Of a DNA stretch of 46,139 nucleotides, positions 3,701 to 44,075 are shown in pieces (the stretch's first letter is position 1; the number at the start of each line of letters is the position of its first letter). The DNA comes from Candidatus Methanoperedens sp. (GTDB lineage: Archaea; Halobacteriota; Methanosarcinia; Methanosarcinales; Methanoperedenaceae). The notes beneath the pieces are model-generated. The model was given only the letters and a program-made list of their open reading frames with translations, had not been told where the DNA came from and searched no databases. Location: assembly GCA_027460585.1 (NCBI GenBank), contig JAPZAP010000123.1, positions 1 through 46,139 of the forward strand, read 5' to 3'. A program made the translations under genes and the position numbers.

Positions 3701-6587
3701 TCTTTACCCCCTTTTTAACTTCTATCGGCAGTAAAAATGTAAATGTGCTTCCCTCGCCATACCTGCTCTCTACCCATATCCTGCCCCCGTGCAGTTCCAC
3801 AAGATGTTTCGTGATGTCAAGACCCAAACCTGTGCCGCCGTATTTCTCAGAAATCCCTTTCTCAAGCTGTTCGAACTTATGGAAAAGCCTGCCAATATTT
3901 TCTTCTTTGATTCCGATGCCTGTATCAGAGACAGAAATCTGCGCCATTTCCCCTTCTTTTTTCGCTGTTATGGTTAAAGTTCCTCCCTCATCCTTGCTGA
4001 ACTTTACTGCATTGCTGAGTAAATTAAAAAGAATCTGCTTGAATCTCTGCTTGTCCGCTTCTATAAACTCAAGTTCCGGGTCAAATTCCGTTTTCAGGAG
4101 CACTTTATGCTTCATTGCCTTTTCTTTTATGAGAGATAGCGTCTCTTTAATGATTTCAGGCACTGACATCTTATCGGGCACAAGTTCTATTTTCCCTGCT
4201 TCTATCCTGGAAAGGTCGAGAATATCATTGATAAGGGTTAGCAGGAATTGATTGCTTGTAAGAATATTATCCACATAATGTTTCTGTTTGTCGCTTAATT
4301 CTCCAGTCAAACCCATTTTAAGAAGTTCGGAAAAACCGATGGATGCATTCAGGGGTGTGCGAAGTTCATGGCTCATATTGGCTAAAAACTCGCTCTTGGC
4401 TTTGTCTGCAGATTCAAGGCGCAGGTTTTCAATGCGTATCTCTTCTGCCTTCTTGCGCTCTGTAATATCGGTGTGGATAGAAATCCAGACCTTTCCATAC
4501 TCGGAGCGTTCAAAAGTCGAAACATGTGCACTACACCAGAATTTTGTGCCATCTTTCTTGATATTTTGAACCTCCCCGCTCCATTCACCGTTATTGTCCA
4601 GGACTTTGCTGATTTCTTTTGCGGTTTCCTCAGGGCTCTTCTCTGTGGGAGCATTGACAACAGAAACAGGTTTACCAATCAGCTCGTCTTTTTCATAACC
4701 AAACATTTTCTCAAATTTCGGATTAGCATAGACAATTATGCCATCATCAGCACGAATAAGATATACTCCCTCAGATATGTTTTCAATAATTTGACCCTGG
4801 AATAGCAGCCGGTTTTCAGCACGCTTATGTTCATCGCGCGTACGCAGCGACATGATACCATACGCTATGTCGCCAGCCAGTTCGTTCAGCAGCGTTATTT
4901 CTTCAGAATCAAATGCATCCTGCTCCTTTGCGCATATATTCAAAACTCCAAAGGGCTTACCGTTGGCAACCAGGGGAAGCGCAATGGCTGAATTATAGCT
5001 TCGCTTTATTGCCTCGTCGAGCCACGGTGCATAATTCGGGTCGGTCTCTATATTTTTTACAACGCTGGCCTTGCCTGTTCTAATAGCTGTGCCTATGTGA
5101 CCTCTGCCGCGTTCGTTGTCCGCCCATGTCATGCCCGGAGTTTCGGGAGAAACTTCATCGTAGCCAGCCTGTGCTACCAGGCGAATGGTTTTTTCTTCAT
5201 CCTCCTCTGCAATGCCGATCCACGCCAATGGATACCCCCCGGCTTCCACGATTCTCTTGCATATCTCGTATAATAATTCTGGCTCATTCGTGGCTCGAAT
5301 GAGTGTTTGATTGCATTGGCTGAGTGTCCTGTAAGCTCGATTGACCTTGCGCAATTCCTCCTCTGCCCGCTTGCGTTTGGTGATATCCAGGCTATATTCT
5401 ATCATCTTGATGACATTGCCTTTTTTATCAAGAATGGGAAAACCGTGAACCTCAACATTCCTGGCATTACCGTCTTTATCATAATGAATATGCTCTACAG
5501 TTGCAGGTTTTTTTGTAATCTTAACTTCTTCAAGCGGACATATGTGTTCGCCTGAACATGGTTTGTCGAGCATGTGTGTAAGTGCATGACACTTTGAACT
5601 TTCGGTGAGCTTACCCAGGCGGGCAGCGGAATTTGCCATTAATATGGAGTAATCGTTGGCATCTATGACATAAAAAGGATGCGTGAGCGATTCAAAAATA
5701 CTGTTCAGGAATTCTCTTTGCTGTATGATTTGTTCCTCGGCTTTTTTACGTTCTGTGATATCACGGACGATAGCCCACATACCTATGTTTTCACCTTTTT
5801 CATTTTTTATCAGGAATGTCCTGAGTTCCACAGGGAAAATAGTCCCGTCTTTTTTGCAGTATTCTTTTTCATATACCTCTGAGTATCCATTTTGAAGGAT
5901 TTGTGTTTCCAAAATTTTTTGTTCAAAGGAATGCCATTTCTTAGGGGTAATATCCTCATAATTTAACGAAGTAAGCTCTTCTGAACCATATCCAAGAATA
6001 TTTTGATATGATCTGTTGTATTCTTTGATTTTGCCTTCCATATCCACAAATACGAATCCATCCATCATGCTTTCGTGCAGTTTGCGATATTTGCTCTCCG
6101 AATCTCGAAGCGCCTCTTCTGCCTGCTTGCGTTCAGTGATATTGTCAAATACGGCGACAAAGTGTTCTTTTTGCACTCCGTAGACTGAAATAAGGAACCA
6201 TATCCCGATAGACTCCAAATATGTCTCAAATCTTTCGGGCTGACCAGTCAAAGCAACCTTACCATAAATCTTAAACAATTCCGGATTTGATTCTTTTATA
6301 CCCGGAATTACTTCTGTCACTTTCTTCCCAACAACATTCTTCAAACCAGTCAATCTTTCAAACGCTTCATTTACGTCGAGATAAATGAAATCATAAGGCT
6401 CTCCGTTTTCAAAAAACATCCTGCAATAGGCAAAACCTTCCTGCATATTTTCGAATAAATTTCTATAACGCTCTTCGCTTTCTCGAAGTGTTTCCTCCGC
6501 ACGATCCATATCTTTGCCAATTACCTGTGCTATTTTCAGGTCGCCGATTTTCCTATTCATCTTCCCGCTCCTTGCCTCATTATTCAC
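3687..6587 (-). CDS. Soluble PAS-GAF sensor histidine kinase
   Basis: This 966-residue kinase has no transmembrane segment. Three PAS/PAC units cover about residues 30-410. The third carries a Cys/His-rich stretch (PCSGEHICPLEE) that could bind a metal or cofactor, though this is inference. A GAF domain follows at about 415-585, then a fourth PAS at about 590-715, the HisKA box MSHELRTPLN with His at about 740, and a HATPase with FNLLSNAVKF and GGTGLGLDI. The kinase core closely resembles the two neighbouring kinases, suggesting local duplication. Its stop overlaps the start of the downstream kinase. Directly upstream lies a decayed receiver gene, the likely former partner or link to the rest of the operon. 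Confidence 0.95.
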   Translation of the reverse strand: MNNEARSGKMNRKIGDLKIAQVIGKDMDRAEETLRESEERYRNLFENMQEGFAYCRMFFENGEPYDFIYLDVNEAFERLTGLKNVVGKKVTEVIPGIKESNPELFKIYGKVALTGQPERFETYLESIGIWFLISVYGVQKEHFVAVFDNITERKQAEEALRDSESKYRKLHESMMDGFVFVDMEGKIKEYNRSYQNILGYGSEELTSLNYEDITPKKWHSFEQKILETQILQNGYSEVYEKEYCKKDGTIFPVELRTFLIKNEKGENIGMWAIVRDITERKKAEEQIIQQREFLNSIFESLTHPFYVIDANDYSILMANSAARLGKLTESSKCHALTHMLDKPCSGEHICPLEEVKITKKPATVEHIHYDKDGNARNVEVHGFPILDKKGNVIKMIEYSLDITKRKRAEEELRKVNRAYRTLSQCNQTLIRATNEPELLYEICKRIVEAGGYPLAWIGIAEEDEEKTIRLVAQAGYDEVSPETPGMTWADNERGRGHIGTAIRTGKASVVKNIETDPNYAPWLDEAIKRSYNSAIALPLVANGKPFGVLNICAKEQDAFDSEEITLLNELAGDIAYGIMSLRTRDEHKRAENRLLFQGQIIENISEGVYLIRADDGIIVYANPKFEKMFGYEKDELIGKPVSVVNAPTEKSPEETAKEISKVLDNNGEWSGEVQNIKKDGTKFWCSAHVSTFERSEYGKVWISIHTDITERKKAEEIRIENLRLESADKAKSEFLANMSHELRTPLNASIGFSELLKMGLTGELSDKQKHYVDNILTSNQFLLTLINDILDLSRIEAGKIELVPDKMSVPEIIKETLSLIKEKAMKHKVLLKTEFDPELEFIEADKQRFKQILFNLLSNAVKFSKDEGGTLTITAKKEGEMAQISVSDTGIGIKEENIGRLFHKFEQLEKGISEKYGGTGLGLDITKHLVELHGGRIWVESRYGEGSTFTFLLPIEVKKGVKIEDN

Positions 6588-6595
6588 CTCACTTC

Positions 6596-6941
6596 CTATA
6601 TTTCCACTCTTCCCAGGAATTCCGGTACGTCAATGGGTTTCAGTAATCATCAAAACCCTCTTCAATGATTCTTTCCCTGTCCCCTTTCATGGCATATGCA
6701 GTCAAGGTTATTAAGGCGTTTTCTCATTCCCCGGCTCACTTTTTATTATTCTGTTTGTTTCTATGCCGCCCATTCCTGTTATCATTATATCCAAGACAAT
6801 CAAACCATATGATTCTTTCACTGTTTTCTCACTGCTTATTTTCGTTTTAGTTCATGGGCAGTAAATCCGTTTGCCCTTTAGTATTTCACATACAAGTTCC
6901 GTGTTCAGCAGGTCGTCCCCACCCACCAGTACTTTAGTCAT
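6596..6941 (-). pseudogene. Decayed CheY-like receiver gene
   Basis: An ATG at 6941-6939 overlaps the stop of the upstream kinase in the usual ATGA manner and reads MTKVLVGGDDLLNTELVCEI, then stops within 30 codons. Further along the same strand the frames break repeatedly. They still spell out receiver-domain pieces: LIVLDIMITGMGGIETN (the phospho-acceptor Asp and following loop), LITLTAYAMKGDRERII, and after a frameshift KPIDVPEFLGRVEI, where the Lys-Pro pair is the conserved receiver lysine. At least two stops and one frameshift separate these pieces. An intact gene here would have been a free receiver protein between two histidine kinases. Confidence 0.8.
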
Positions 6942-9900
6942 TTTATTTCACCTTCCTTTTTCGCTTCAAGAGGTATTAAAAATGTAAATTCGCTCCCTTC
7001 CCCATACTTGCTTTCCGCCCATATCCTGCCTCCATGCAGTTCCACAAGCTGCTTTGAAATAGCAAGTCCAAGACCGGTTCCCCCGTATTTCTGCGAAATT
7101 CCTTTATCGAGCTGCTCGAATTTCTGGAAAAGCTTTTCCATATTTTCAGGCTTGATACCTATGCCTGTATCACGGACCGATATCTGCGCATTTTCATCCA
7201 CTTTTCTTGTAGTTATTGTTACAGTTCCCCCCTCTTCTTTGCTGAACTTTATCGCATTTGAGAGAAGATTGAAAAGTATCTGCTTTACTCTTTGCTTATC
7301 CGCGTCTATAAGACCAAGGCCCGGATCATATTCTTTTTTAATGATTATCCTGTGCTTCATGGCTTTTTCTTTTATGAGAGTGATCGTCTCTTCTACAGTA
7401 GCCTGGAGAGGTATACTCTCAATGTTCAGGTCGATTTTTCCCGCCTCTATTTTACTCAGGTCGAGAATATCGTTGATCAGGTTGAGCAGGAAATTTCCGC
7501 TATTATGAATATTTTCAATAAAGTGCCTGTGCTTTTCATTCAACTCCCCTGCCATCCCATCGATCAAAAGCTGTGAAAAACCCAGGATAGAGTTCAATGG
7601 AGTCCTCAATTCATGGCTCATGCTCGCAAGGAACTCACTCTTGGCTTGGCTTGCATATTCCAGGCGCTCTTTCTCGATTCGAATCTCCTCTGCTTTCTTT
7701 CGCTCCGTTATGTCGCTGAATACACCATACTTATAGATTTTACCTCTGAAATTAACAGGGATAGCCACTATCTCCACGTCCACAGGCGAGCCATCCATTC
7801 TGAGGAACTTTTCTTCGATCAGGGGCGCTATTTTTCCTTCTTCTTCCATCAGGATTCGTTCTTTTGCTATGTTGTAATAATCAGGGTGTATAATATCCAA
7901 TATTGGTTTTCCAATCAGCTCTTCAACATTTGTTGCTCCAAGGATTTTTGCAGCTTGCGGATTTACGAATATGATTTTTCCATCGGTGTGGGTGAGTAGG
8001 CCATAGGGAGAATATTCGATAAGCAATCGGTTCCTCTCCTCACTTTCCCTTAGCGTTTCTTCTGCTTTTTTGCGCTCTGAAATATCCCGGCCAAAGCTGA
8101 CTGTACCGATCATCTCTCCTTTTGAATAAATCGGCGCAGTATTTATCGAAAGGATCAAAGCTGTTCCATCTCGCTTCTTGATGGTTGCTTCATATTGCTG
8201 AGGCTTGCCTTTTAATACCTTGCCGAAAATTCCCATCAGGTTAGGAAGTTCCTCTTTCATAATAAGGGGAGTATATACTTCATTGCGCCATTCTTCCAGC
8301 GAATAGCCGCTTACCTCTTCGGTTTGCCTGTTGCAAAACTGGAAACGGCCTTCCAGATCTGCAGTCCATATCATATCATTGGAAAATTCAATCATAGTGC
8401 GATACTTTTCCTCGCTTTCTGTCAATGATTCCTCTGCCCGCTTGCGCTCTGTAATGTCTTTCATTATGGATGCATACTCGGTGAAATTTTGTTTTTCATC
8501 CTTGAGCGCCACTCCTGTGATTTCGACAGGTATTATTTTCCCATCTTTTGTGAGCCTCACCGATTCATAATCTGTAAAAACTCCTTTTTCATTTAAGATC
8601 CTAAGACAGTGTTCAAGCTCTTTCTGAGCCCGGTCTTCCGGAATAATGATGGTAATGGGCTTTCCTATGATTTCTTTCTTCCTGTAACCCAACATCTTTT
8701 CTGCGCCATCATTCCACGAGAGTATGTTGTTATTTAAATCCATTGTGCATACAGACTCTGGAATATTTTTAATTATGGAAGCCTGCCTGTTGATTTCAAT
8801 CTCAGCCTTCTCATGTTCAGCACGCATACGCAGCGCCTTGATGCCAAATGCCAGGTCGTCTGCCATCTCAACCAGAAGCTTTACTTCTTCTTCATAAAAA
8901 GCATCCGGCTCCTGTGCATAGATATTCAACACTCCGGATTGCTCGCTGTCAATGGCAAAAGGAATAGATATGGAAGAAGCATAGCCCCGCCTGATCGCCT
9001 CAGCACGAAGTTTAGTGTGACCTGGATCGGTCAGGATATTCAGGATGCATGGTTTGCCTGTAAGGCTGGCTTGGGCTTCGCACGTCTTCATATCAGCCAG
9101 CGAACTTTCCACTCCTTCAATATTCTCATTCTCGTACCCGTACCGGGCCATTACATGTAAACCATTCTTTCCTTCCCTTTGTGCAAAGCCGATCCATGCA
9201 AGGTGGTATCCGCCTGATTCAACAATTATTCTGCATGAATCTTGAAGCAGCATTGATTCATCTGATGAGCGCACCAGCGCCCGGTTGCTTTCGCCCAGCG
9301 TTTTGAGGGCGCGGTTGACTTTGTATAACTCTTCTTCAGCAAGTCTTCTCACATCCATCTCAGCCCTGAGGGACGCTGTTCTTGCTTCCACCTTTTTCTC
9401 AAGCTGTTCATTCAACGTTTCCAATTCATCCTGGACTTTCTGAAGTTCGATATTTTTCTGGATTGCGGTTTCGTATGTGGAAATGAGAAGATCGAGAATC
9501 TGCTGGCGGGCTGCAGTAATATAATATTCCTGGCCCCCAAAGAACATTTTGATGCCAATCTCTAGTTTTTCGTTCTCACGGATCTGTCTGTTTGCAAGTA
9601 TGTACTGTACTCTTGAGAGAATATATTTTTCATCATATGGCTTTGTAATGAAGTTATCCGCTCCGCATTCCAGGCCTTTGAGAACATCCTTCGATTCTGA
9701 AAGAGAGGTTAAAAGAATAACCGGTATATTTTTCAGGTTCTTTTCTTCCTTGATGCGGCGGCACAGCTCATAGCCATCCATTTCAGGCATAATGATATCG
9801 CTAATAATAAGTGCGGGTATACCCTTTTTCGTTATGATATCAAGGGCTTCCCTGCCAGTATATGCAACCCACACCCGATAGTCATTCTTCTCAAGCAGGA

Positions 9901-9976
9901 ATTTCAACATCTCAGCCTGTGTGAGGCTATCCTCCACAATGAGAATTTCTTCATCGTGATTTTTATCAGGGTTCAT
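6938..9976 (-). CDS. Receiver-GAF-PAS hybrid histidine kinase
   Basis: This 1012-residue soluble protein begins with a receiver domain (acidic pair in IVEDS, phospho-acceptor Asp about 60 in LIISDIIMPEMDG, Lys about 112 in ITKPY). A coiled-coil linker (about 135-215), a GAF domain (about 215-390) and three PAS/PAC units (about 395-765) follow. It ends in HisKA (His about 788) and HATPase (FNLLSNAIKF, DTGIGI, GGTGLGLAI). The receiver-first layout suits a relay in which CheA phosphorylates the receiver and so controls the kinase. It lies directly after cheB with an ATGA overlap, so it is a good candidate for the pathway output. Its first 200 residues are close to the separate receiver protein at 11057-11803. 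Confidence 0.95.
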   Translation of the reverse strand: MNPDKNHDEEILIVEDSLTQAEMLKFLLEKNDYRVWVAYTGREALDIITKKGIPALIISDIIMPEMDGYELCRRIKEEKNLKNIPVILLTSLSESKDVLKGLECGADNFITKPYDEKYILSRVQYILANRQIRENEKLEIGIKMFFGGQEYYITAARQQILDLLISTYETAIQKNIELQKVQDELETLNEQLEKKVEARTASLRAEMDVRRLAEEELYKVNRALKTLGESNRALVRSSDESMLLQDSCRIIVESGGYHLAWIGFAQREGKNGLHVMARYGYENENIEGVESSLADMKTCEAQASLTGKPCILNILTDPGHTKLRAEAIRRGYASSISIPFAIDSEQSGVLNIYAQEPDAFYEEEVKLLVEMADDLAFGIKALRMRAEHEKAEIEINRQASIIKNIPESVCTMDLNNNILSWNDGAEKMLGYRKKEIIGKPITIIIPEDRAQKELEHCLRILNEKGVFTDYESVRLTKDGKIIPVEITGVALKDEKQNFTEYASIMKDITERKRAEESLTESEEKYRTMIEFSNDMIWTADLEGRFQFCNRQTEEVSGYSLEEWRNEVYTPLIMKEELPNLMGIFGKVLKGKPQQYEATIKKRDGTALILSINTAPIYSKGEMIGTVSFGRDISERKKAEETLRESEERNRLLIEYSPYGLLTHTDGKIIFVNPQAAKILGATNVEELIGKPILDIIHPDYYNIAKERILMEEEGKIAPLIEEKFLRMDGSPVDVEIVAIPVNFRGKIYKYGVFSDITERKKAEEIRIEKERLEYASQAKSEFLASMSHELRTPLNSILGFSQLLIDGMAGELNEKHRHFIENIHNSGNFLLNLINDILDLSKIEAGKIDLNIESIPLQATVEETITLIKEKAMKHRIIIKKEYDPGLGLIDADKQRVKQILFNLLSNAIKFSKEEGGTVTITTRKVDENAQISVRDTGIGIKPENMEKLFQKFEQLDKGISQKYGGTGLGLAISKQLVELHGGRIWAESKYGEGSEFTFLIPLEAKKEGEIK

Positions 9977-11055
9977 AAATTAACCACCCTCATTTCTAAC
10001 TTATTATTTACTAAACCTGATAATACTGCCGCAATCTTTTCCGGCGAAAGTACATACATTGCTGCATCAAGGTTAATCGCCTCGCCCGGCATTCCATGAA
10101 CAACTGAACTTTCCTTATCCTGTGCTATTGTAATGGCTCCTTTTTCCTTCATCAACTTCAACTCTTCCGCGCCGTCTTTTCCCATGCCTGTGAGCAATAT
10201 ACCAACAGCGTTTTTCCCAAAAACTTCTGCGACAGAACGGAAAAGATATGAAACCGAAGGACAAAGGCCATTCTCTATTTCACCTCTGGCAAGGGATATT
10301 CTTCCATACCTGTCAGGCTTCATTGCAAATCCATCCGGCGCAAGATAAACATGTCCGGGAAGAATAAACTCCCCGTGAGTAGCAACATGAACAGGCAACG
10401 AAGAAGTTTGTCCCAGCCACTCCATAAACCCTTGTATAAAACCTGCTGCCATATGCTGAACTATTAACACAGGAACAGGAAAATTTCCTGGAAGTTTTGA
10501 TAAAATTGTTTGAAGGACTGGAGGACCACCTGTAGAAGCGCCGATAGCTACAAGCTGGATTTCTGGTTGTCGTTCAAGTTTCACTTCAACCGTTTGATTT
10601 GTTTCCCGCCTGGGAAAAGCCCTGCGTCTTACCACTTTCACTTCGGACATCAACTTCACCGTTTGGATAAACCTGGATACATCATCCTGATAATCCGGAT
10701 GGCCAATACCCCTGGGTTTTTGTACAAAAGCAAGGGCACCTGCCTCGATCACGCGCATTGCCATGGATACTTCTTGAGCGCCTGTGCTTCCTGTCACAAT
10801 GACTATAGGAACTGGACATGTTTCCATAATCCTTCTGGTTGCCTCATACCCATCCATTTTTGGCATGTGGATATCCATTGTAATAACATCCGGGGAAAGG
10901 TGTTTAGTTTCTTTTATGGCATCCTCCCCATTGCTTGCAGTTCCAATAATCTCTATTCCAGGATCGGAACTAAGAATATGAATTAATAATTCCTGCGCAA
11001 CCGGGGAATCATCGACAACCAGGACTTTTATCTTTGCTTTCGTTGATTCATTCAT
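9973..11055 (-). CDS. cheB: CheB receptor methylesterase / glutamine deamidase
   Basis: CheB removes methyl groups from the glutamates of chemoreceptors and is activated by phosphorylation from CheA. The 360-residue protein has an N-terminal receiver (VLVVDDSP, Asp about 61 in DIHMPKMDG, Lys about 113) and a C-terminal esterase domain. The catalytic triad is visible: Ser about 174 in IGASTGGP, His about 201 in VQHMAAGF and Asp about 294 in TGMGKDG. The linker is basic and variable as usual. It starts 1 bp after the stop of the receiver gene upstream and overlaps the following hybrid kinase by 4 bp, so the three are probably translated together. With CheR at 16.6-18.1 kb it forms the adaptation pair. 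Confidence 0.97.
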   Translation of the reverse strand: MNESTKAKIKVLVVDDSPVAQELLIHILSSDPGIEIIGTASNGEDAIKETKHLSPDVITMDIHMPKMDGYEATRRIMETCPVPIVIVTGSTGAQEVSMAMRVIEAGALAFVQKPRGIGHPDYQDDVSRFIQTVKLMSEVKVVRRRAFPRRETNQTVEVKLERQPEIQLVAIGASTGGPPVLQTILSKLPGNFPVPVLIVQHMAAGFIQGFMEWLGQTSSLPVHVATHGEFILPGHVYLAPDGFAMKPDRYGRISLARGEIENGLCPSVSYLFRSVAEVFGKNAVGILLTGMGKDGAEELKLMKEKGAITIAQDKESSVVHGMPGEAINLDAAMYVLSPEKIAAVLSGLVNNKLEMRVVNL

Positions 11056-34303: not shown

Positions 34304-35986
34304 ATGTCAAAAACGATGAGTGGACTATTCGGAATATCTAAAAATGTTAGAGGGCGTGCCCTCAGGATAGCGGTGGGAATAACAGTTATGGCAATTATAT
34401 TGCTAGCGGAAAGCACAGGTGCAGCAACGGAAATAAGCTCCTGCACAACGATTTCCTCCCCTGGTACTTATGTGCTCAATCAGAATATAATAGACAGCTC
34501 TGCATCTAACTGCATAGAAATAACTTCAAATGATGTTGTTTTTGATGGCGCAGGTCACATAATTGATGGTGTAGATATCTATAGCACATATGGTGTTTAT
34601 TTTTTGGGATTAACAAATGTTACTGTAAAAAACGTCATAGTAACGGATTGGGATACCGGTATATACTATAAATATGCACTAAAAAGTAACATAATCAATA
34701 ACACTGCAAATTCAAATAGAGTCTTGGGCATTTTCATGCAAAATAGTAACAACAATATACTAATTGGCAACATTGCCTCAAATAATGGTGAAGGCATCGA
34801 ACTGGTTGAATCCGCAAACAATACTTTGAGTGGTAATAATGCCTCAAACAACGATTATAATGGAATCAGACTGTCATTTTCTGGCAACACAAATAACACT
34901 TTCATTGATAACATTGTAAATTCGAATCAAGTTGGTTTCGTATTGGGTTCTGGAATTGATGGTGGTTCTACCAATAACTTCTTGAGTAGAAACATTGTTT
35001 CGAACAATAGTATCGGTATCCAACTGTCATCTTTCAGCAACAATAACACTGTTTATGACAACTATTTTAACAATGCGAACAACGTTTATGATGTAGGAAA
35101 CAACATCTGGAATCTCACAAAAACTGCCGGAGTTAATATCATCGGCGACCCCTACCTCGCCGGCAATGTCTGGGCTAATCCAAGCGGCTCAGGCTTCAGC
35201 CAGACCTGCGCAGACAGCAATAGCGATGGAATATGCGATTCACCTTATACGCTTGATAGTAGCAATATCGATTACCTGCCGCTTGTGTACAAGCCAGGAG
35301 AAACAGTTGGCTCTGATACCGTTGGTATCTATCGTAATGGTTCGTTCTATCTCAGGAACAGCAACAGTGCCGGAAGTGCTGACCTTTCCTTCATATACGG
35401 AGTGGACGGCGATATACCACTCGTAGGTGACTGGAATGGCGATGGCGTTGATACAGTTGGTATCTATCGCCACGGTGCTTTCTATCTGCATAACAGCAAC
35501 AGCGCCGGTAGTGCCGACATATCCTTCATATATGGAGTGGACGGCGACATACCGCTCGTAGGTGACTGGAACGGCGATGGCATTGATACCGTTGGTATCT
35601 ATCGTGCTGGTGCTTTCTATCTACGTAACAGCAACAGCGCCGGTAATGCTGACCTTTCCTTCATATATGGAGTAGACGGCGATACGCCTCTCGTGGGTGA
35701 CTGGAACGGTGATGGCACCGATACAGTTGGTATCTATCGTCATGGTTCGTACTATCTCAGAAACAGTAACACTGCGGGAAATGCTGACCTGTCCTTCATA
35801 TATGGAGTGGACGGCGATACACCTCTCGTAGGTGACTGGACAGGCTCTGGCACTGATACCGTTGGTATCTATCGTGCTGGTGCGTTCTATCTCAGGAACA
35901 GCAACAGCGCCGGTAATGCTGACATGTCCTTCATATATGGGATATCCACCGATACACCTCTGGTGGGCGACTGGAACGGAAGTTAA
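34304..35986 (+). CDS. Secreted beta-helix protein with C-terminal DTVGIYR repeats
   Basis: This 560-residue exported protein has a signal peptide whose hydrophobic core is at about residues 22-37 (AVGITVMAIILLAESTG). Residues about 45-290 form Asn-rich repeats (NSNNNILIGNIASNNGEGIE type) of the right-handed parallel beta-helix family (NosD/PbH1). It ends in five 45-residue repeats (about 338-560) of the form DTVGIYRHGAFYLRNSNSAG ... GDWNGDG. The DWNGDG loops look like calcium-binding loops of FG-GAP/VCBS-type propellers. No C-terminal anchor is visible. GAGGA lies 5-10 bp before the ATG. First of three tandem paralogues sharing the C-terminal block. Confidence 0.9.
   Translation: MSKTMSGLFGISKNVRGRALRIAVGITVMAIILLAESTGAATEISSCTTISSPGTYVLNQNIIDSSASNCIEITSNDVVFDGAGHIIDGVDIYSTYGVYFLGLTNVTVKNVIVTDWDTGIYYKYALKSNIINNTANSNRVLGIFMQNSNNNILIGNIASNNGEGIELVESANNTLSGNNASNNDYNGIRLSFSGNTNNTFIDNIVNSNQVGFVLGSGIDGGSTNNFLSRNIVSNNSIGIQLSSFSNNNTVYDNYFNNANNVYDVGNNIWNLTKTAGVNIIGDPYLAGNVWANPSGSGFSQTCADSNSDGICDSPYTLDSSNIDYLPLVYKPGETVGSDTVGIYRNGSFYLRNSNSAGSADLSFIYGVDGDIPLVGDWNGDGVDTVGIYRHGAFYLHNSNSAGSADISFIYGVDGDIPLVGDWNGDGIDTVGIYRAGAFYLRNSNSAGNADLSFIYGVDGDTPLVGDWNGDGTDTVGIYRHGSYYLRNSNTAGNADLSFIYGVDGDTPLVGDWTGSGTDTVGIYRAGAFYLRNSNSAGNADMSFIYGISTDTPLVGDWNGS
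35315..35983 (+). repeat. 669-bp five-repeat block, copy 1
   Basis: Four 135-bp units and a final 129-bp unit encode the DTVGIYR repeats. Two further blocks of exactly 669 bp end the next two genes. Unit 1 always has NGSFYL, unit 4 HGSYYL and unit 5 AGAFYL, so each block was copied whole rather than grown separately. Confidence 0.9.
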
Positions 35987-35997
35987 AAAAAATGAAT

Positions 35998-36024
35998 GTG
36001 GGTTGAAAAACTCACTTTTTTTTT
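35998..36024 (+). terminator. Hairpin terminator
   Basis: GTGGGTT, loop GAAA, AACTCAC (one G-T wobble), followed by nine T residues, 12 bp after the stop. The terminator after the third surface-protein gene has the same flanking sequence (aaaaaaaatgaat) and a perfect stem. Confidence 0.75.
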
Positions 36025-36367
36025 ATAAAAAAACATCTAAGATCACTGTGCAATAGTGTAAAATTTTATAACTAGTGTGGTTTGGAGTTGCCCTCCACAA
36101 AGTATACTGAAGAACCTGGACTCTACATTCTGGAAATCTATACCGAAAAGCATAATTGAGGCAAAATTCACGTGTACTGGCAAAAACGGCAACAAGCCCA
36201 TTGACATCTTGGACTTTACAGGTAAAAATAAGAATCGGAGCGATTCTCTTTAACCCTATGGGAATTGTAGGATAAATTTCGCAATGTTTTTATAGTTTCA
36301 AGGTTCAACCTCATAATATTGCTCAAAAACGCATCGTTGAGATTCATTTATAGGACGGTGGAGAAAA
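36025..36367. other. Intergenic region between surface genes 1 and 2
   Basis: No intact gene is supported. Plus-strand positions about 36093-36251 stay open (SIPKSIIEAKFTCTGKNG and so on) without a start, and may be a relic. A TATA-like tttttatagttt (about 36283-36294) and GGTGGAG just before the ATG at 36368 form the promoter and ribosome site of the next gene. Confidence 0.35.
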
Positions 36368-38047
36368 ATGGTATCAAATAATATTTATGGAGGGCGTACC
36401 CTCAGTATCGCTATTAGCTTAATAATGCTGGAATTGCTGCTGGCGGGCGGGGCGGGGGCGTCGCCGTTTGCATATATCACGAACCATGACAGCAATAACG
36501 TTTCTGTAATTGATACTGCCACAAACACGGTTACAGCCACTGTGAATGTAGGAAGCAGTCCTGGAGGAGTTGCAGTTAATCCGGCGGGAACAAAGGTATA
36601 TGTGGCGAATATAAACAGCAACACAGTTTCTGTGATTGATACAAGCACGAACACAGTTACAGCCACCGTACCTGTAGGAAGCCGTCCTGGTGGAGTGGCA
36701 GTTAATCCGGCGGGAACAAAGGTGTACGTGGCGAACGACGCTGGCATCGTCTCTGTTATTGATTCCGCCACGAACACTGTTACAGCCACCGTGAATGTAG
36801 GTGGAAACAATGGTGGGGGAGTTGCAGTTAATCCGGCGGGAACAAAGGTATATGTGGCATACAATGACACCGTTTCTGTGATTGACACAGCCACAAACAC
36901 ATTTACAGGCATCCTCTCGAATCTTGGAACCGGTCCTGGCGGAATTGTAGTCAATCCGGCGGGAACAAAGGTATATATGGTAAGCGATATCGAGGATGGA
37001 AGCGACATTGTCTCTGTGATTGATACTTCCACAAACACAGTTACAGCTACCGTGAATGTAGGAAGTGTTCCTCGTGGAGTTGCTGTAAATCCAGAAGGTA
37101 CGAAGATATATGTGACGAACAGCAATAGCAACAACGTCTCTGTGATTGATACAGCAACAAACACTGTTACAGCTACTGTTAATGTAGGAAATTATCCTGC
37201 TGGGGTTGCAGTTAATCCGGCGGGAAAAAAGGTTTACGTGGCGAACCGGGACAGCAACACTGTCTCTGTAATTGATACTGCCACGAACACTGTAACAACC
37301 ACCGTGAATGTGGGAAGCGGTCCTCGTTCTTTCGGTCAGTTTATAGGTCCTGAGGCACAACCGGTACTCGGTACTGATACTGTTGGTATCTATCGTAATG
37401 GTTCGTTCTATCTCAGGAACAGCAACAGTGCCGGAAATGCTGACATGTCCTTCATATATGGAGTGGACGGCGATATACCACTAGTGGGCGACTGGAATGG
37501 CGATGACATTGATACTGTTGGTATCTATCGTCACGGTGCGTTCTATCTCAGGAACAACAACACTGCCGGGAGTGCTGACCTCTCCTTCATATATGGAGTG
37601 GACAGCGATATTCCGCTTGTAGGTGACTGGAACGGCGATGGCATTGATACAGTTGGTATCTATCGCCACGGTGCTTTCTATCTACGTAACAGCAACAGCG
37701 CAGGGAATGCTGACCTTTCCTTCATATATGGAGTAGACGGCGATATTCCACTCGTGGGCGACTGGAACAGCGATGGCACCGATACCGTTGGTATTTACCG
37801 TCATGGTTCGTACTATCTTAGGAACAGCAACACTGCGGGAAATGCTGACCTCTCCTTCATATATGGAGTTGACGGCGATACACCTCTCGTGGGTGACTGG
37901 ACCGGCTCTGGCACTGATACCGTTGGTATTTATCGTGCTGGTGCATTCTATCTCAGGAACAGCAACAGTGCCGGGAATGCTGAAATGGCATTCGTATATG
38001 GAATATCCACCGATACACCCCTCGTGGGTGACTGGAACGGACCTTAG
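36368..38047 (+). CDS. Secreted YVTN beta-propeller protein with C-terminal DTVGIYR repeats
   Basis: This is a 559-residue exported protein. The signal peptide (ISLIMLELLLAGGAGAS) is followed by about seven YVTN repeats of some 42 residues (VSVIDTATNTVTATVNVG ... GVAVNPAGTKVYVAN), which would close a seven-bladed propeller over about residues 30-325. The C-terminal five-repeat block is nearly identical to that of the preceding gene. The segment around the signal peptide also resembles gene 1 at DNA level (agggcgt-ccctcag), so the genes share both ends and differ in the middle. Beta-propeller surface proteins with YVTN repeats are common in Methanosarcinales. Confidence 0.93.
   Translation: MVSNNIYGGRTLSIAISLIMLELLLAGGAGASPFAYITNHDSNNVSVIDTATNTVTATVNVGSSPGGVAVNPAGTKVYVANINSNTVSVIDTSTNTVTATVPVGSRPGGVAVNPAGTKVYVANDAGIVSVIDSATNTVTATVNVGGNNGGGVAVNPAGTKVYVAYNDTVSVIDTATNTFTGILSNLGTGPGGIVVNPAGTKVYMVSDIEDGSDIVSVIDTSTNTVTATVNVGSVPRGVAVNPEGTKIYVTNSNSNNVSVIDTATNTVTATVNVGNYPAGVAVNPAGKKVYVANRDSNTVSVIDTATNTVTTTVNVGSGPRSFGQFIGPEAQPVLGTDTVGIYRNGSFYLRNSNSAGNADMSFIYGVDGDIPLVGDWNGDDIDTVGIYRHGAFYLRNNNTAGSADLSFIYGVDSDIPLVGDWNGDGIDTVGIYRHGAFYLRNSNSAGNADLSFIYGVDGDIPLVGDWNSDGTDTVGIYRHGSYYLRNSNTAGNADLSFIYGVDGDTPLVGDWTGSGTDTVGIYRAGAFYLRNSNSAGNAEMAFVYGISTDTPLVGDWNGP
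37376..38044 (+). repeat. 669-bp five-repeat block, copy 2
   Basis: Same length and unit order as copies 1 and 3. The last two units are the best conserved among the copies; the final unit here reads AEMAFVYGISTDTPLVGDW, a small divergence. Confidence 0.9.
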
Positions 38048-38059
38048 AAAATAACAATA

Positions 38060-38086
38060 TGTGGGGATTTTATCCCACAATTTTTT
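38060..38086 (+). terminator. Hairpin terminator
   Basis: TGTGGG and CCCACA flank a short A/T loop (38060-38079), followed by six T residues, 12 bp after the stop. The stem differs from those after surface genes 1 and 3. Confidence 0.7.
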
Positions 38087-38232
38087 ATAATAGTTTGTTA
38101 GTTTAATAGGATAATTCAGCATAATAGACACAGGCGATGCAATGCTTATATTAAGAGATCAAGTCGGTCTAGACGGACCTGAGTGTTGAGAATGAACACA
38201 GTATGAAATAAATAAAGCAGAGGGTAAGAAAT

Positions 38233-39843
38233 ATGAGAAATTATCACTTGGTATGGTCAATCATTTCAATAGGATTGATTTTTAGTTTTATTCAGGAAGC
38301 ACAAGGCGATTATGGGATGGCGAATTTTCAAATTCAAGGAGATGAGTGGGCAAGTTCAGACAATGATTCAATATCGAGTGGCATTCACCTTGCGCAGGGT
38401 TTTTATGGAATAAGTGTATTTAACCAGGGAGGTTCAGTTCTGGGTAATATTACGTATACGCTGGACGCTGACAATATAGTGTGGATGGCTGATGAAGAAT
38501 ATGCTAAACGAAATGGCTCTTTTATACATTGGGTTTACCCCACAGACAGAGTAATAGTTCCGGGAGATTGGATTTATACAACAGTAAATTCTGGTTATTA
38601 TTATTCAAAATACGTTCCCATGAACATTAACAGGTGGACTAATAAGAGCATATTTAATTCTGATGGGTACCAGCTTGCACAATTTAACGTAACATTTGAA
38701 AATTCAAACTGTGATTTCATATATGGAGCAATACGAATTAATGAACATACTTTAGCAAATGCAACTTTCAGTGCAACTATCCTGAACGATACATTCAGAA
38801 CAGATGCGCCAATCGAAAATTTTTCAGAAAATAACACACATGCGATTGCATTTGATTTGGATAGAACTCTTAATCATACAAATAAGACGTATAATTTCTC
38901 TGTCGTTATAAAATTGAATTCAACGATAAATGATTCTTCCACTATTTCAGCAATCGAATATAAACCATATTTTTCGATGTCTTTAGTAAACGAGCGTCAT
39001 GATGCAGGAGAAACAGGTTTTACAGTAACGATGCCGGTGGATATGTTGACTGACCATGTTAATTACGCTTCAGCATCGACAAACATTAGTACTACTTGGA
39101 CTTACTCTAACAATTTCATGAGGGGAATGGTTTTGAATGAGTTTTTCAACGTTATTAATTCTACAGGCTCCGATACCGTTGGTATCTATCGTAATGGTTC
39201 ATTCTATTTACGTAATGCCAACAGTGCCGGGAGCGCCGATATGTCCTTCATATATGGAATGGACGGCGATATACCGCTCGTAGGTGACTGGAATGGCGAT
39301 GGCATTGATACCGTTGGTATCTATCGTCACGGTGCGTTCTATCTCAGGAACAACAATAGTGCCGGGAGTGCTGACCTGTCCTTCATATATGGAATGGACG
39401 GCGATATTCCACTCATAGGTGATTGGAACGGCGATGGCGTTGATACCGTTGGTATCTACCGTCACGGTGCGTTCTATCTACGTAACAGCAATAGTGCCGG
39501 GAGTGCTGACCTTTCCTTCGTATATGGAATGGACGGCGATATACCATTAGTAGGTGACTGGAATGGCGATGACACTGATACCGTTGGTATCTATCGTCAT
39601 GGTTCGTACTATCTCAGGAACAGCAACACTGCGGGGAATGCTGACCTGTCCTTCATATATGGAGTGGACGGCGATACACCTCTCGTAGGTGACTGGACCG
39701 GCTCTGGCACAGATACCGTTGGTATCTATCGTGCTGGTGCGTTCTATCTCAGGAACAGCAACAGCGCCGGGAATGCTGACCTCTCCTTCATATATGGAAT
39801 AGACAGCGATACACCACTTGTGGGTGACTGGAACGGAAGTTAA
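38233..39843 (+). CDS. Secreted sequon-rich protein with C-terminal DTVGIYR repeats
   Basis: This is a 536-residue exported protein. The signal peptide (LVWSIISIGLIFSFIQEAQG) is followed by an unrecognised domain (about 25-312). That domain has roughly 16 N-x-S/T sequons (NIT, NGS, NKS, NVT, NAT, NDT, NHT, NKT and others) and alternating beta-type sequence. The final 223 residues are the shared five-repeat block. The sequon density suggests heavy N-glycosylation on the cell surface. A GAGGG site lies about 8 bp before the ATG. The N-terminal domain is not related by eye to those of the two genes before it. Confidence 0.88.
   Translation: MRNYHLVWSIISIGLIFSFIQEAQGDYGMANFQIQGDEWASSDNDSISSGIHLAQGFYGISVFNQGGSVLGNITYTLDADNIVWMADEEYAKRNGSFIHWVYPTDRVIVPGDWIYTTVNSGYYYSKYVPMNINRWTNKSIFNSDGYQLAQFNVTFENSNCDFIYGAIRINEHTLANATFSATILNDTFRTDAPIENFSENNTHAIAFDLDRTLNHTNKTYNFSVVIKLNSTINDSSTISAIEYKPYFSMSLVNERHDAGETGFTVTMPVDMLTDHVNYASASTNISTTWTYSNNFMRGMVLNEFFNVINSTGSDTVGIYRNGSFYLRNANSAGSADMSFIYGMDGDIPLVGDWNGDGIDTVGIYRHGAFYLRNNNSAGSADLSFIYGMDGDIPLIGDWNGDGVDTVGIYRHGAFYLRNSNSAGSADLSFVYGMDGDIPLVGDWNGDDTDTVGIYRHGSYYLRNSNTAGNADLSFIYGVDGDTPLVGDWTGSGTDTVGIYRAGAFYLRNSNSAGNADLSFIYGIDSDTPLVGDWNGS
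39172..39840 (+). repeat. 669-bp five-repeat block, copy 3
   Basis: Third block of exactly the same length. Some units here have YGMDGD where copies 1 and 2 have YGVDGD, showing limited spread of changes between neighbouring units inside this copy. Confidence 0.9.
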
Positions 39844-39854
39844 AAAAAATGAAT

Positions 39855-39877
39855 GTGGGTTGAAAAACCCACTTTTT
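39855..39877 (+). terminator. Hairpin terminator
   Basis: Perfect stem GTGGGTT/AACCCAC with loop GAAA followed by five T residues, 11 bp after the stop. Confidence 0.8.
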
Positions 39878-39948
39878 CTTATACAAAAACTTTTAGGGAT
39901 TACGAAAAACGTCTTGAAGAATCGTTTTTGAAATTAGTTCGGTTGCTC

Positions 39949-40875
39949 TTATTTTTCCAAAAAATTTCTCTTATAATTTACAACGCCTTTATTATAATAA
40001 TAACCCATTACCAAATCGTAAAAACCGGGAAAACTCATTGGAAGAAACTTATCAGCAAATAAACAAAACATCTCTGCTATTTTTACATTTAGCTTGACTA
40101 AAGGATTCTCATTCTTAGATGAGTTTATTGCCAAAAAATCTCTTAGCTCAGGATGTTTATTATAAAATATATGGGCTGAATAACCACATAGTTCCTGGCG
40201 TTTTCTAAATGAAGCAAAATATATATTATGATGGTGGTAACCAATAGCATTTTTGTTGTATATAATCTGTAATCCCCGTTTTTTCAAACGATAACCTAAT
40301 TCAATATCTTCCCAGACTGCATAGGGAAACTCCGTATCAAAAAGTTTGTCCTCTAATAAAAAATTACGTTGAAGTGAGATATTCGAGGTATAAAAAAAAT
40401 TGAACTGAACATCGTTTTCATCGGTTATGATCGAGTATCCAAATTGTAATCCCATCTCTTGAATGTACGCCATGAAAGGCGTAACTTTCTTATCAATTGG
40501 CCATATGGTTTTCCCTAAACAACTAATATTTGAATTAAAGTCATGCTTCTTATGGGTAAGATAATGTTCTTCGACCAGCCTGGGATCTGGAACGACATCA
40601 TCACCTGTTATTAACAGTATGTCCCCCGAAGCAGCATAAATAGCTTTATTCCTGGCTTGCGCAGGACCTTTATTCTCCTGGTAAAAATATAATATCTGGA
40701 TGGGGGATTTTTCGCAAAAATCATTAACCACAGATCGAGTTTCATCCGTTGATCCGTCATCGACGATGATTATCTCTTTGATATGATCTAAAAATGTTTG
40801 TTTAAGATATGCATTCAGGGTTAATTTCAAGACGTTGCATCTGTTATATGTTGGGATGATTATGCTGAATTTCAA
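39949..40875 (-). CDS. Family 2 glycosyltransferase
   Basis: This GT-A fold glycosyltransferase of 308 residues starts FSIIIPTYNRCNVLKLTL. It has the nucleotide-sugar segment IIVDDGSTDETRSVV and a DxD-like metal site in LLITGDDVVPDP. An acceptor-side motif DTEFPYAVWEDIELGYRLKK corresponds to the conserved ED region of the family. The sugar and acceptor are unknown. There is no transmembrane helix. The ATG overlaps the stop of the large fusion gene upstream by 4 bp, so the two probably work on the same glycan. Confidence 0.92.
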   Translation of the reverse strand: MKFSIIIPTYNRCNVLKLTLNAYLKQTFLDHIKEIIIVDDGSTDETRSVVNDFCEKSPIQILYFYQENKGPAQARNKAIYAASGDILLITGDDVVPDPRLVEEHYLTHKKHDFNSNISCLGKTIWPIDKKVTPFMAYIQEMGLQFGYSIITDENDVQFNFFYTSNISLQRNFLLEDKLFDTEFPYAVWEDIELGYRLKKRGLQIIYNKNAIGYHHHNIYFASFRKRQELCGYSAHIFYNKHPELRDFLAINSSKNENPLVKLNVKIAEMFCLFADKFLPMSFPGFYDLVMGYYYNKGVVNYKRNFLEK

Positions 40876-43800
40876 ATATTCACCTCACAATAATATGTTC
40901 TCAACGATAGATTAGAATTATAATAACTATCCGAACGTAGATTATCTCCCCATCTTTTCAACATATAATCAGCTTCATGTGCAAATACTTTATGACCTCT
41001 GGAAACAGACTCATGATGGTATAATTCAGCATATGGGGTATAAACAATTAAATACCCTTTTTCTCTTAACCTCAAACAAAAATCAACATCATTATAACAC
41101 ACGGCAAGATCTTCATTAAAACCATCCATTTCTTTAAAAAATGTTGTACGAACCATCATTGCAGCTGCTGTTACCGCTGAATAATTCCTTATTGTATTCA
41201 ATAATCCAAAATATCCATTATAATCGTAATGTAACCGATTGAACACATGACCTGCAATTCCAGTGACAGCATCAGGACTTAATCCCAATATGACACCCGC
41301 ATGTTGAATGGATTTATCAGGATACAGAAGTTTACAACCTACTGCGCCGACTTCGGGCCGCTGCGCATGTTCTAACATAGTTTGAATCCAATCAGGCGAG
41401 ATCACTTCAATATCGTTATTTAGAAAAAGTAAATATTCACCCTTTGCATGATTTGCTGCAAAATTATTAATTTTAGAGAAATTAAATTGTTTATTATATT
41501 TAAGTACGCAAACATCTAAATTATTTAGATAATCCAAAGTTTCAATGTCAGTACTGTTATTATCAACTACGATTACTTCATAATTATTATACGTTGTTTT
41601 TTCATTAATGCTCTGTATGCATTTTTTTAAAAACGGGAGCTGGTCTTTAGTGGGAATAATAATAGTTACCAGTGGTTCTCCTTTGATCGACCTCTTTACC
41701 CTGTACGAACTTGGCCATTTTCCGTCCGATACAGTACCGTCTATTTTTCTTCTATCAAGTGCGTCTTTTAGAGCCTTTTTAGCAGCCGTAACAACCAGTC
41801 CGTCCTTTGCATACGGATCTCTTGCAGTGGATCCAGGGATTTGACGCCAGTGATACAAAATTTTTGGTATATGTCCAATGTTTTTTTCATCAATGACTTC
41901 TGTGAAACGCAGGAGCATATCATAATCCTGTGATCCTTCAAATCTTTCCCTGAGCATACCTATTTGTTCCAAAATCTTATGACGGTATATTCCAAGATGA
42001 TTGGTATAACCACACGATAATAATAGATCTGGAGACCAATCCGGTTTAAAAAAAGGATTAAATCTGTTGTCTTCCTCATCAATTTTATCTTCGTCAGAAT
42101 AAATAAAATCAAGATGTGGATTTTTGTTTAGCATTTTTATTACTTCATATAGGGTAAAAGGTGCAAGCGTATCATCGTGATCCATAAAGGCAATAAATTC
42201 CCCTGTTGCCATAGAGATTGCTTCATTGGAATTTAGGGCAATTCCTTTATTATGTGATAGGAACTTGATCTTAATTCTTTTATCCACTTTGGCATATTCC
42301 TGAAGAACCTTTTTTACATGGGGTATTGTGGATCCTCCTTCGGCGATACAAAGTTCCCAATTATGATAACTTTGATTTATTACTGATTGAATAAACCTCC
42401 TCAACCATCGTTCATCTGTGTTCCATACTGCTGTAATAATACTTATCTTAGGTTTATACTCAAAATTCTTACATTCCTTAGAAATTAGTTTCAACTCTTC
42501 TTTCGTTGGTTCATTTTTTTGAATCCAGATGTCATAATCATTTTTGTTGTTTTTTTTTTCTACCACGTGCTGTCTGGATTTGCGCCAAAAACTCTTCCAA
42601 CCTTCATTTTTGATAATACGAATGCTTAATAATCCTAAATCGTAAACATTTCGCCTTTTTGTCTCATGAGGTAATAAATAGTTGATGATTTTTCGATATC
42701 TTGTTAGAGCTTTCCATCCAATACTCTGTTGAATGATACGGGATTCATTTTCTAAATTTCGTATCTTTCCATCCTTTTCCAGGATGATTGTGTTGAGTTC
42801 ATTGATCTGCTGCTGTTTTTCATTTAGTTGACATGAAATCGCAGAGATCTGTCCATCCTTTTCCTGGATTATTGTGTTTAACTCATTGATCTGCTGCAGT
42901 TTTTCATTCAGTTGACCTGAAATAGCAGCGATTTGTCCATTCTTTTCCAGGATGATTGTGTTGAGTTTATTGATCTGCTGTTGTTTTTCATTTAGTTGAC
43001 CTGAAATGGCAGCGATTTGTCCTTCCTTTTCCTGGATTATTGTGTTTAACTCATTGATCTGCTGCAGTTTTTCATTTAGTTGACCTGAAATAGAAGCTAT
43101 TTGTCTATCTTTATTCTGAATGATTGTGTTGAGTTCATTGATCTGCTGCAGTTTTTCATTTAATTGACTTGAAATCGCAGAGATTTGTCCATCCTTTTCC
43201 TGGATGTGTTTGTTTAACTCGTTGATCTGCTGCAGTTTTTCATTTAGTTGACCTGAAATAGCAGCGATTTGTCCGTCTTTTTCATTTAGTTGACCTGTAA
43301 TCGCAACGATTTGTCCATCTTTATTCTGAATAGCTGTGGTGAGTTCATTGAATTGTGCACTCATGCTTTGTAGTTTGTGATAAAGTGTTATTTTATCACC
43401 TAAATATGAATACAATTTAGTCGTTGTAACTATTTCCTGTTCTTCCATATTCAAGAAAGACAGTACTTCTTCAGAGACTTGCGCCCCAACTGCAAGCACA
43501 CCCAAACCATGTCCATGTTTAAATTCGAAAGATGGATAGTGCTCCTTAACTTCTTCCCAAAACTTCCAAACTCCAAACTTCTTCTCATGCACATTTATAT
43601 CATGAAATAAAACAACACCATGCAGGCTCATTTTTGGCAACCAGGTCTCAAAATCATTTTTTACTGCATCATAAGTATGGTATCCATCAATATGGATAAG
43701 ATCTATACTGCCATCTGAAAAATAATCCAATGCTTCTTCAAATCTGCTCTGGATCAATTGAGAAAAACCCCTATATAATGAATCATTATATGTTTTTAAC

Positions 43801-44075
43801 TCATCCAGTACTTCAGAACCATAAAATCCTGCATGCTCGTCACCTTCCCAGGTATCAATCGCATAACAGGCAGTATCCAATCCCAGTACATCAACAGCCT
43901 GGCAAAAAGCACAATACGAATCACCCCTGAGTGTTCCCAGTTCCACGAAGATTTTTGGCTTTTGCATTTGCACAATGGTAAAGGCAAAAGGAATGTGCTC
44001 ATGCCAGGAATTGACATCGGTAAGTCTTCGAGGTTTATCGAAGCATAGAGGGTAGTTAAAGGGATTAAATGACAT
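40872..44075 (-). CDS. Methyltransferase - coiled coil - tandem glycosyltransferase fusion
   Basis: This 1067-residue cytoplasmic multidomain protein begins with a class I SAM-dependent methyltransferase-like domain (about 1-200: FVELGTLRGDSYCAFCQAV, AIDTWEGDEHAG, DLIHIDGYHTYDAV). A long coiled coil follows at about 230-455, with six 28-residue repeats. Two GT-A family 2 glycosyltransferase domains then follow. GT-1 (about 545-790) has ISIITAVWNTDERWLRRFI and the metal site MDHDDT. GT-2 (about 805-1060) has VTIIIPTKDQLPFLKKCIQ, VVDNNSTD and LLFLNNDIEV. It may polymerise and methyl-cap a surface polysaccharide, the coiled coil acting as a spacer or ruler (inference). A TATA-like gaatttatatgcc stands about 40 bp before the ATG, with aaggaa as ribosome site. 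Confidence 0.92.
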   Translation of the reverse strand: MSFNPFNYPLCFDKPRRLTDVNSWHEHIPFAFTIVQMQKPKIFVELGTLRGDSYCAFCQAVDVLGLDTACYAIDTWEGDEHAGFYGSEVLDELKTYNDSLYRGFSQLIQSRFEEALDYFSDGSIDLIHIDGYHTYDAVKNDFETWLPKMSLHGVVLFHDINVHEKKFGVWKFWEEVKEHYPSFEFKHGHGLGVLAVGAQVSEEVLSFLNMEEQEIVTTTKLYSYLGDKITLYHKLQSMSAQFNELTTAIQNKDGQIVAITGQLNEKDGQIAAISGQLNEKLQQINELNKHIQEKDGQISAISSQLNEKLQQINELNTIIQNKDRQIASISGQLNEKLQQINELNTIIQEKEGQIAAISGQLNEKQQQINKLNTIILEKNGQIAAISGQLNEKLQQINELNTIIQEKDGQISAISCQLNEKQQQINELNTIILEKDGKIRNLENESRIIQQSIGWKALTRYRKIINYLLPHETKRRNVYDLGLLSIRIIKNEGWKSFWRKSRQHVVEKKNNKNDYDIWIQKNEPTKEELKLISKECKNFEYKPKISIITAVWNTDERWLRRFIQSVINQSYHNWELCIAEGGSTIPHVKKVLQEYAKVDKRIKIKFLSHNKGIALNSNEAISMATGEFIAFMDHDDTLAPFTLYEVIKMLNKNPHLDFIYSDEDKIDEEDNRFNPFFKPDWSPDLLLSCGYTNHLGIYRHKILEQIGMLRERFEGSQDYDMLLRFTEVIDEKNIGHIPKILYHWRQIPGSTARDPYAKDGLVVTAAKKALKDALDRRKIDGTVSDGKWPSSYRVKRSIKGEPLVTIIIPTKDQLPFLKKCIQSINEKTTYNNYEVIVVDNNSTDIETLDYLNNLDVCVLKYNKQFNFSKINNFAANHAKGEYLLFLNNDIEVISPDWIQTMLEHAQRPEVGAVGCKLLYPDKSIQHAGVILGLSPDAVTGIAGHVFNRLHYDYNGYFGLLNTIRNYSAVTAAAMMVRTTFFKEMDGFNEDLAVCYNDVDFCLRLREKGYLIVYTPYAELYHHESVSRGHKVFAHEADYMLKRWGDNLRSDSYYNSNLSLRTYYCEVNI
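42775..43325 (-). repeat. 84-bp tandem repeats encoding the coiled coil
   Basis: Six full units of 84 bp plus a half unit encode the 28-residue (four-heptad) sequence KDGQIAAISGQLNEKLQQIN ELNTIIQE. Units differ at a few residues (KDR, KEG, KNG variants; LQQ or QQQ). The period keeps both the reading frame and the heptad register, so copy-number change would lengthen or shorten the rod without breaking it. Confidence 0.9.

Follow-up and report, generated by a model that had tools for sequence, protein, structure and literature searches.

β-Propellers of the VCBS class have been described before, including highly repetitive members and FG-GAP-type members from archaea (PMC8023676, PMC9218822). 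Among five-bladed propellers, tachylectin-2 represents the Velcro frame and the other frame has been built in the laboratory (PMC4735018), and the tachylectin-like propellers are devoid of an aspartate-rich loop (PMC8023676). For ANME archaea, PEF-CTERM together with archaeosortase C has been found in ANME-2d (PMC5244752), and proteins with cohesin and dockerin domains are abundant in ANME genomes (PMC9012536). The present analysis concerns a stretch of 46,139 bp (the window) from the genome of a Candidatus Methanoperedens species, in which three adjacent genes end in the same repetitive tail, predicted to fold into a five-bladed propeller.

Anatomy of the three-gene array

The ORF list of the window contains three tandem plus-strand frames (34304–35986, 36368–38047 and 38233–39843), whose subdivision into heads, tails and 3' flanks is given in Table 1. 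As the sequence-only reading had proposed, a β-helix, a YVTN and a sequon-rich head are joined to one type of tail, with DNA identities of 90.3, 88.5 and 88.8 % among the three copies. The equal block length is likewise borne out, each tail comprising 223 codons (669 bp and stop) arranged as five units with a spacing of 45 residues, the last unit being two residues shorter than the others. An identical unit order, also claimed, is fully supported for the 3' part alone: in a tree of the units, units 4 and 5 group with their counterparts from the other genes, and units 1–3 are mixed.

Table 1. Features of the three-gene array. Positions refer to the window; C3, C16 and C97 are contigs of this genome, and C97a, C97b and C97c are tailed genes on contig 97.
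Feature	Position	Strand	Match or measure
Gene 1 head: signal peptide-like N-terminus and NosD-type right-handed β-helix, 337 aa	34304..35314	+	Pfam PF05048 E 2.3e-33, PF13229 E 1.6e-14
Gene 1 tail: five 45-residue units (223 aa) and stop; five-bladed propeller predicted by AlphaFold	35315..35986	+	
Gene 1 3' flank: terminator-like hairpin and T-run, common to gene 3	35987..36039	+	89 % over 56 bp, counted from stop codon
Gene 2 head (336 aa): signal peptide-like N-terminus followed by a propeller of seven YVTN repeats	36368..37375	+	NCBIfam TIGR02276 E 3.5e-93, 7 stretches
Gene 2 tail: five units (223 aa) and stop	37376..38047	+	
Gene 2 3' flank: second hairpin type, also in other genes of this genome	38048..38116	+	C3 89 % over 73 bp; C97c 83 % over 72 bp; also C97a, C16
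Gene 3 head: signal peptide-like N-terminus and sequon-rich domain, 313 aa	38233..39171	+	no Pfam or NCBIfam match
Gene 3 tail: five units (223 aa) and stop	39172..39843	+	
Gene 3 3' flank: hairpin and T-run, gene 1 type	39844..39895	+	

The tailed proteins are presumably secreted. The DNA encoding the N-termini of genes 1 and 2, reported as shared, is indeed similar (68 % over 78 bp); the likeness is modest, however, and genes on contig 97 match equally well or better. The terminator proposed to be common to genes 1 and 3 is confirmed, the flank of gene 2 being of another type. The head of gene 3 contains 16 N-X-S/T sequons as compared to 6.2 in shuffled sequences, and a search of all other genomes of the genus did not find this head.

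Directly downstream of the array, two glycosyltransferase genes are located on the opposite strand (39949–44075). Their GC3 is low (0.30–0.32), and one of them encodes a protein of 1067 residues that combines methyltransferase, coiled and GT2 regions. At the other end of the window (200–11055, minus strand) lies a cluster of three large PAS/GAF histidine kinases and a CheB-type response regulator.

Fold and blade number of the tail

The window tails have no credible match in Pfam or NCBIfam, and neither collection holds a model of its own for this five-bladed family; Suc_Porlyase_C and other weak matches stayed under their cut-offs and were dismissed. An AlphaFold model of the tail, calculated with 87 homologues, displays 20 strands forming five four-stranded blades (pLDDT 97.9, pTM 0.92), in agreement with the five-bladed propeller suggested earlier. 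The blades are predicted to close into a ring, as in the VCBS/FG-GAP superfamily. Judging by the DSSP string and the position of the D-x-N-x-D-G loop rather than by coordinates, the strand order of a unit would be B-C-D-A in the nomenclature of the VCBS class, so that the last A strand would have to pair with the first B-C-D strands in a Velcro closure.

The best Foldseek match of the model is the PVL lectin 2bwr (E 2.8e-5), a GlcNAc lectin of the PVL type, followed by the propellers of KICSTOR and BBS with TM-scores of about 0.5, a value expected when five blades are compared with seven. No tachylectin was found among the sequence matches in the PDB or among the 50 Foldseek matches listed. 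On the sequence level, FG-GAP_3 (PF13517) matches 36 of the 87 homologues at E ≤ 0.01 (best 1.3e-10), the tail of gene 1 itself remaining without a match, and a profile of the tail detects one solved protein, the secreted esterase 9oee of Streptomyces griseus (E 2.9e-4). Moreover, the D-x-[DN]-x-D-G loop AB of the VCBS/FG-GAP superfamily is present: over 584 units its positions are occupied by D (91 %), W (95 %), N or D (59 and 34 %), G (87 %), D or N (74 and 17 %) and G (96 %). Each window tail contains five Ca2+-type loops, which are near canonical in units 1–3, degenerate in unit 4 (DWTGSG) and, in the case of the fifth, split by the chain ends. Loops of the D-x-N-G-D-G type are expected to bind Ca2+.

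Relatives of the tail are encoded at 435 loci in GTDB genomes, where they form part of numerous presumably secreted proteins from other archaea and from bacteria. Units were counted in 112 countable proteins, comprising the 79 best loci together with the viral contigs and the relatives of this genome, and 98 of these proteins, distributed over many phyla, possess five units. Among the apparent six-unit proteins, seven turned out to have five as well: their first 11–19 residues correspond to the end of a unit, four whole units follow, and the array closes with the start of another. An eighth protein combines a five-unit array with one built of a half, four whole units and a half. Such arrays represent the same five-blade ring opened half a blade later, i.e. 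circular permutants, and AlphaFold again gave 20 strands for one of them (pLDDT 95.7). That the total stays at five even in the permutants is, on the sequence level, the strongest argument for the predicted closed ring. True deviations are few, with four units detected in C97b, L051 and L063, nine in L091 and six in L114; in L032 the units were detected only in part. A search artefact was considered as the origin of the constant number and rejected, since a five-unit query disfavours fewer units but not more. In addition, most of the weaker relatives found by a separate search in the genus and its order have five units.

Distribution, copying and upkeep of the tail

This genome encodes eight tails on four contigs, all of them C-terminal and one with four units. 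Outside the window they are attached to two β-helices, a multicopper oxidase, an Ig-like domain and a cohesin; the search for further heads proposed in the sequence-only reading was thus successful. One tail on contig 97 (L024:3011-4864) has four units and ends in VVGHW-stop, which could be a truncated or a genuine four-unit form. On the same contig (13890–20767), a second multicopper-oxidase-like protein is found in pieces beside the tailed one, with a frame of 2223 residues. The cohesin is fused to a five-blade tail on contig 3 (L026:6628-7797), and a β-helix protein with a C-terminal dockerin is encoded on contig 122 (L175); the two could form a docking pair, their meeting being a guess.

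Only four of 30 congeners show a match to the tail, one of them in fragments only, and the module is thus dispensable in the genus. Across the phylum it occurs in 15 of 295 genomes, this genome included. In one congener (G028, contig 183), a multiheme cytochrome with MtrC/MtrF-like and c7 matches ends in a five-unit tail (L029:5333-8812). The gene mcrA is present in 22 of the 30 genomes of the genus and was not found in this bin, which is 84 % complete. In bacteria, many of the heads belong to proteases or peptidoglycan hydrolases, and amidases are also common as heads elsewhere. Three IMG/VR contigs classed as viral encode propeller proteins (L112 and L113 with five units, L114 with six). The tail was not found in phage records, a viral structure library contained no match to the model at E ≤ 0.001, and plasmids gave only distant matches.

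Seven tails of this genome form a single clade (support 100/100). In eight multi-copy genomes (from Chloroflexota, Acidobacteriota and Actinomycetota, together with this one), the median identity of the tails is 51–78 % within a genome and 45 % between genomes, and most pairs of heads are unrelated. Accordingly, genome-local spread onto many heads has occurred repeatedly. Homology between the tailed genes reaches roughly 50–75 bp beyond the stop codon, indicating that the copied piece consists of tail, stop and terminator. GC3 amounts to 0.48–0.50 in the seven full tails, irrespective of the GC3 of their heads.

At the protein level, the tails of genes 2 and 3 are 93 and 91 % identical to that of gene 1. 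Among the three, dS amounts to 0.36–0.41 and dN/dS to 0.11–0.14, and unit 4, which is identical in all three proteins, differs by 6–10 synonymous substitutions. These values imply that purifying selection does most of the work. They do not support recent gene conversion as the main source of the uniformity, which had been put down to probable conversion. The divergence is intermediate and does not fully reach the level at which the cassette idea would fail, that between unrelated genes; nor are the three combinations of head and tail old, fixed orthologues. Uniformity therefore appears to result mainly from purifying selection acting on a lineage-specific expansion, with limited mosaicism. Short exchanges between tails are likely to a limited extent. 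Within the C3 tail, units 2 and 3 show 96 % identity, and a stretch without differences between the tails of gene 1 and C3 is unusually long according to a permutation test, in which variation of rates among sites was disregarded. Moreover, tail similarity does not predict which of the two terminator types a gene has. Recombination between blocks might also give rise to surface variants, as the sequence-only reading supposed.

Possible function and comparison with known systems

Comparison with congeners (G020, G021, G024, G027 and G028, this genome being G000) supports the suggestion that the tail stands in the place of another C-terminal module. A full-length homologue of the multicopper-oxidase head in G027 (61 %) stops where the tail would start, and in G020 a homologous head runs on into Ig and CBM4_9 domains. 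Homologues of the gene 1 head end in PEF-CTERM in G024 (20.0 bits, just below the cut-off of 23) and in a short stretch without an assigned domain in G027, and heads similar to that of gene 2 end in a dockerin in G020 and in a PxKF domain in G021. These heads are related by sequence and not proven one-to-one orthologues, since β-helix and YVTN proteins are numerous. Head swapping, as proposed in the sequence-only reading, thus holds: on the same type of head, the tail is exchangeable with other C-terminal modules, and it most likely fills a "choice-of-anchor" slot, where it may serve in retention or binding.

The tail is probably, though by no means certainly, a closed five-bladed Ca2+-loop propeller that serves as a shared attachment module, spread by 3' duplication and kept by purifying selection. 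Anatomy, sharing of the tail, exchange of C-terminal modules between genomes and constraint can be read from the sequences, and the anatomy suggests attachment and a common partner. In such a mechanism, a VCBS/FG-GAP-class ring with Ca2+ expected in its D-x-N-G-D-G loops would recognize one and the same partner, either glycan or protein, belonging to the cell surface, the S-layer or the matrix. Seated in the C-terminal slot that other anchors and binding modules use in related proteins, it would keep the secreted protein on the cell or close to it, leaving the actual activity to the head. Within the lineage, duplication would have placed tail, stop and terminator, the 3' end of the gene, onto unrelated heads, and purifying selection would mainly account for the uniformity of the copies since then. 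In 33 of the 112 sampled proteins the propeller has an N-terminal or internal position and hence is not strictly a C-terminal device, which favours a binding domain over a sorting signal processed at the C-terminus. This variable position and the dispensability of the module in the genus count against the attachment reading.

The main rival to attachment is substrate targeting, in which a lectin-like tail would direct the enzymes or adhesins that bear it to targets outside, such as a polymer, a mineral or a partner cell, and not hold them on their own cell. GlcNAc-binding lectins as nearest folds, CBM4_9, a carbohydrate-binding domain, in the place of the tail in one congener, the tailed cytochrome of another, and the protease and amidase heads common elsewhere all speak for this possibility, which the protease and peptidoglycan-hydrolase heads of bacteria also fit. 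However, very different heads carry one type of tail within a genome, and PEF-CTERM or dockerin occupies the same place on related heads, making targeting to an external partner rather unlikely.

Considerably less probable is a repeat, neutral or selfish, whose spread is due to recombination and which has no shared task but is tolerated at the 3' end of genes for secreted proteins. Its patchy distribution, the genome-local expansions on unrelated heads and the inclusion of the terminator in the copied piece would be in line with such a repeat, but the low dN/dS speaks strongly against it, as do the protein-identical unit 4 and the retention of five units across phyla. A further rival is separate amplification of each tail from a single blade, with likeness arising by convergence or homogenization. 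For similar propellers, independent amplification is documented (PMC9218822), and the mixing of units 1–3 in the unit tree as well as the nearly identical units 2 and 3 of C3 could be explained in this way. Yet the positional pairing of units 4 and 5, the single clade of the seven tails and the homology extending past the stop into the terminators indicate that the block was copied as a whole, so that separate amplification is hardly credible.

Beyond this genome, the shared attachment module might, as is tentatively proposed, be one case of an unnamed, widespread five-bladed domain by which archaea and bacteria generally retain secreted proteins. Each genome would use one variant, matched to one local partner, on a set of unrelated proteins, in place of PEF-CTERM, dockerin and comparable devices. 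If so, the tail would provide a sequence tag for surface proteins in a probably methane-oxidising archaeal genus, including the congener multiheme cytochrome, and in many uncultured bacteria. With its constant five blades, its naturally occurring permutants and its expansions in parallel in separate genomes, it would also lend itself well to studying closure and spread of propellers.

Within an open-access library, no description of this five-bladed family, of natural permutants or of the use as an exchangeable module was found, nor a paper containing strings of the GDWNGDG type or dealing with such anchoring. Among known C-terminal modules, PEF-CTERM (TIGR03024), dockerin (PF00404) and the choice-of-anchor families of NCBIfam are found on related congener heads where the tail sits here; in contrast to these, the tail is a predicted folded propeller without transmembrane segment or sorting motif, and its role in anchoring is a suggested one. 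In predicted fold, secreted setting and weak profile matches the tail resembles VCBS/FG-GAP_3 propellers (PF13517), which include fungal PVL lectins and the propellers of α-integrins; in both, two strands of each blade are connected by a D-x-[DN]-x-D-G loop. However, PVL and integrin propellers have seven blades and the tail has five of about 45 residues, and the PF13517 model misses the window tails themselves. Tachylectin-2, a secreted lectin with five blades of 47 residues, agrees in blade number and size, but the aspartate-rich AB loop of the tail is absent from tachylectin-like propellers, which places the tail outside that family. The highly repetitive propellers described by Pereira and Lupas in 2022 (PMC9218822) are similar in the high identity of their blades, in having FG-GAP-type members in archaea and bacteria and in their frequent position at protein ends. 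In these propellers, however, blade number varies within lineages (median of six for VCBS), whereas the tail keeps five blades across phyla.
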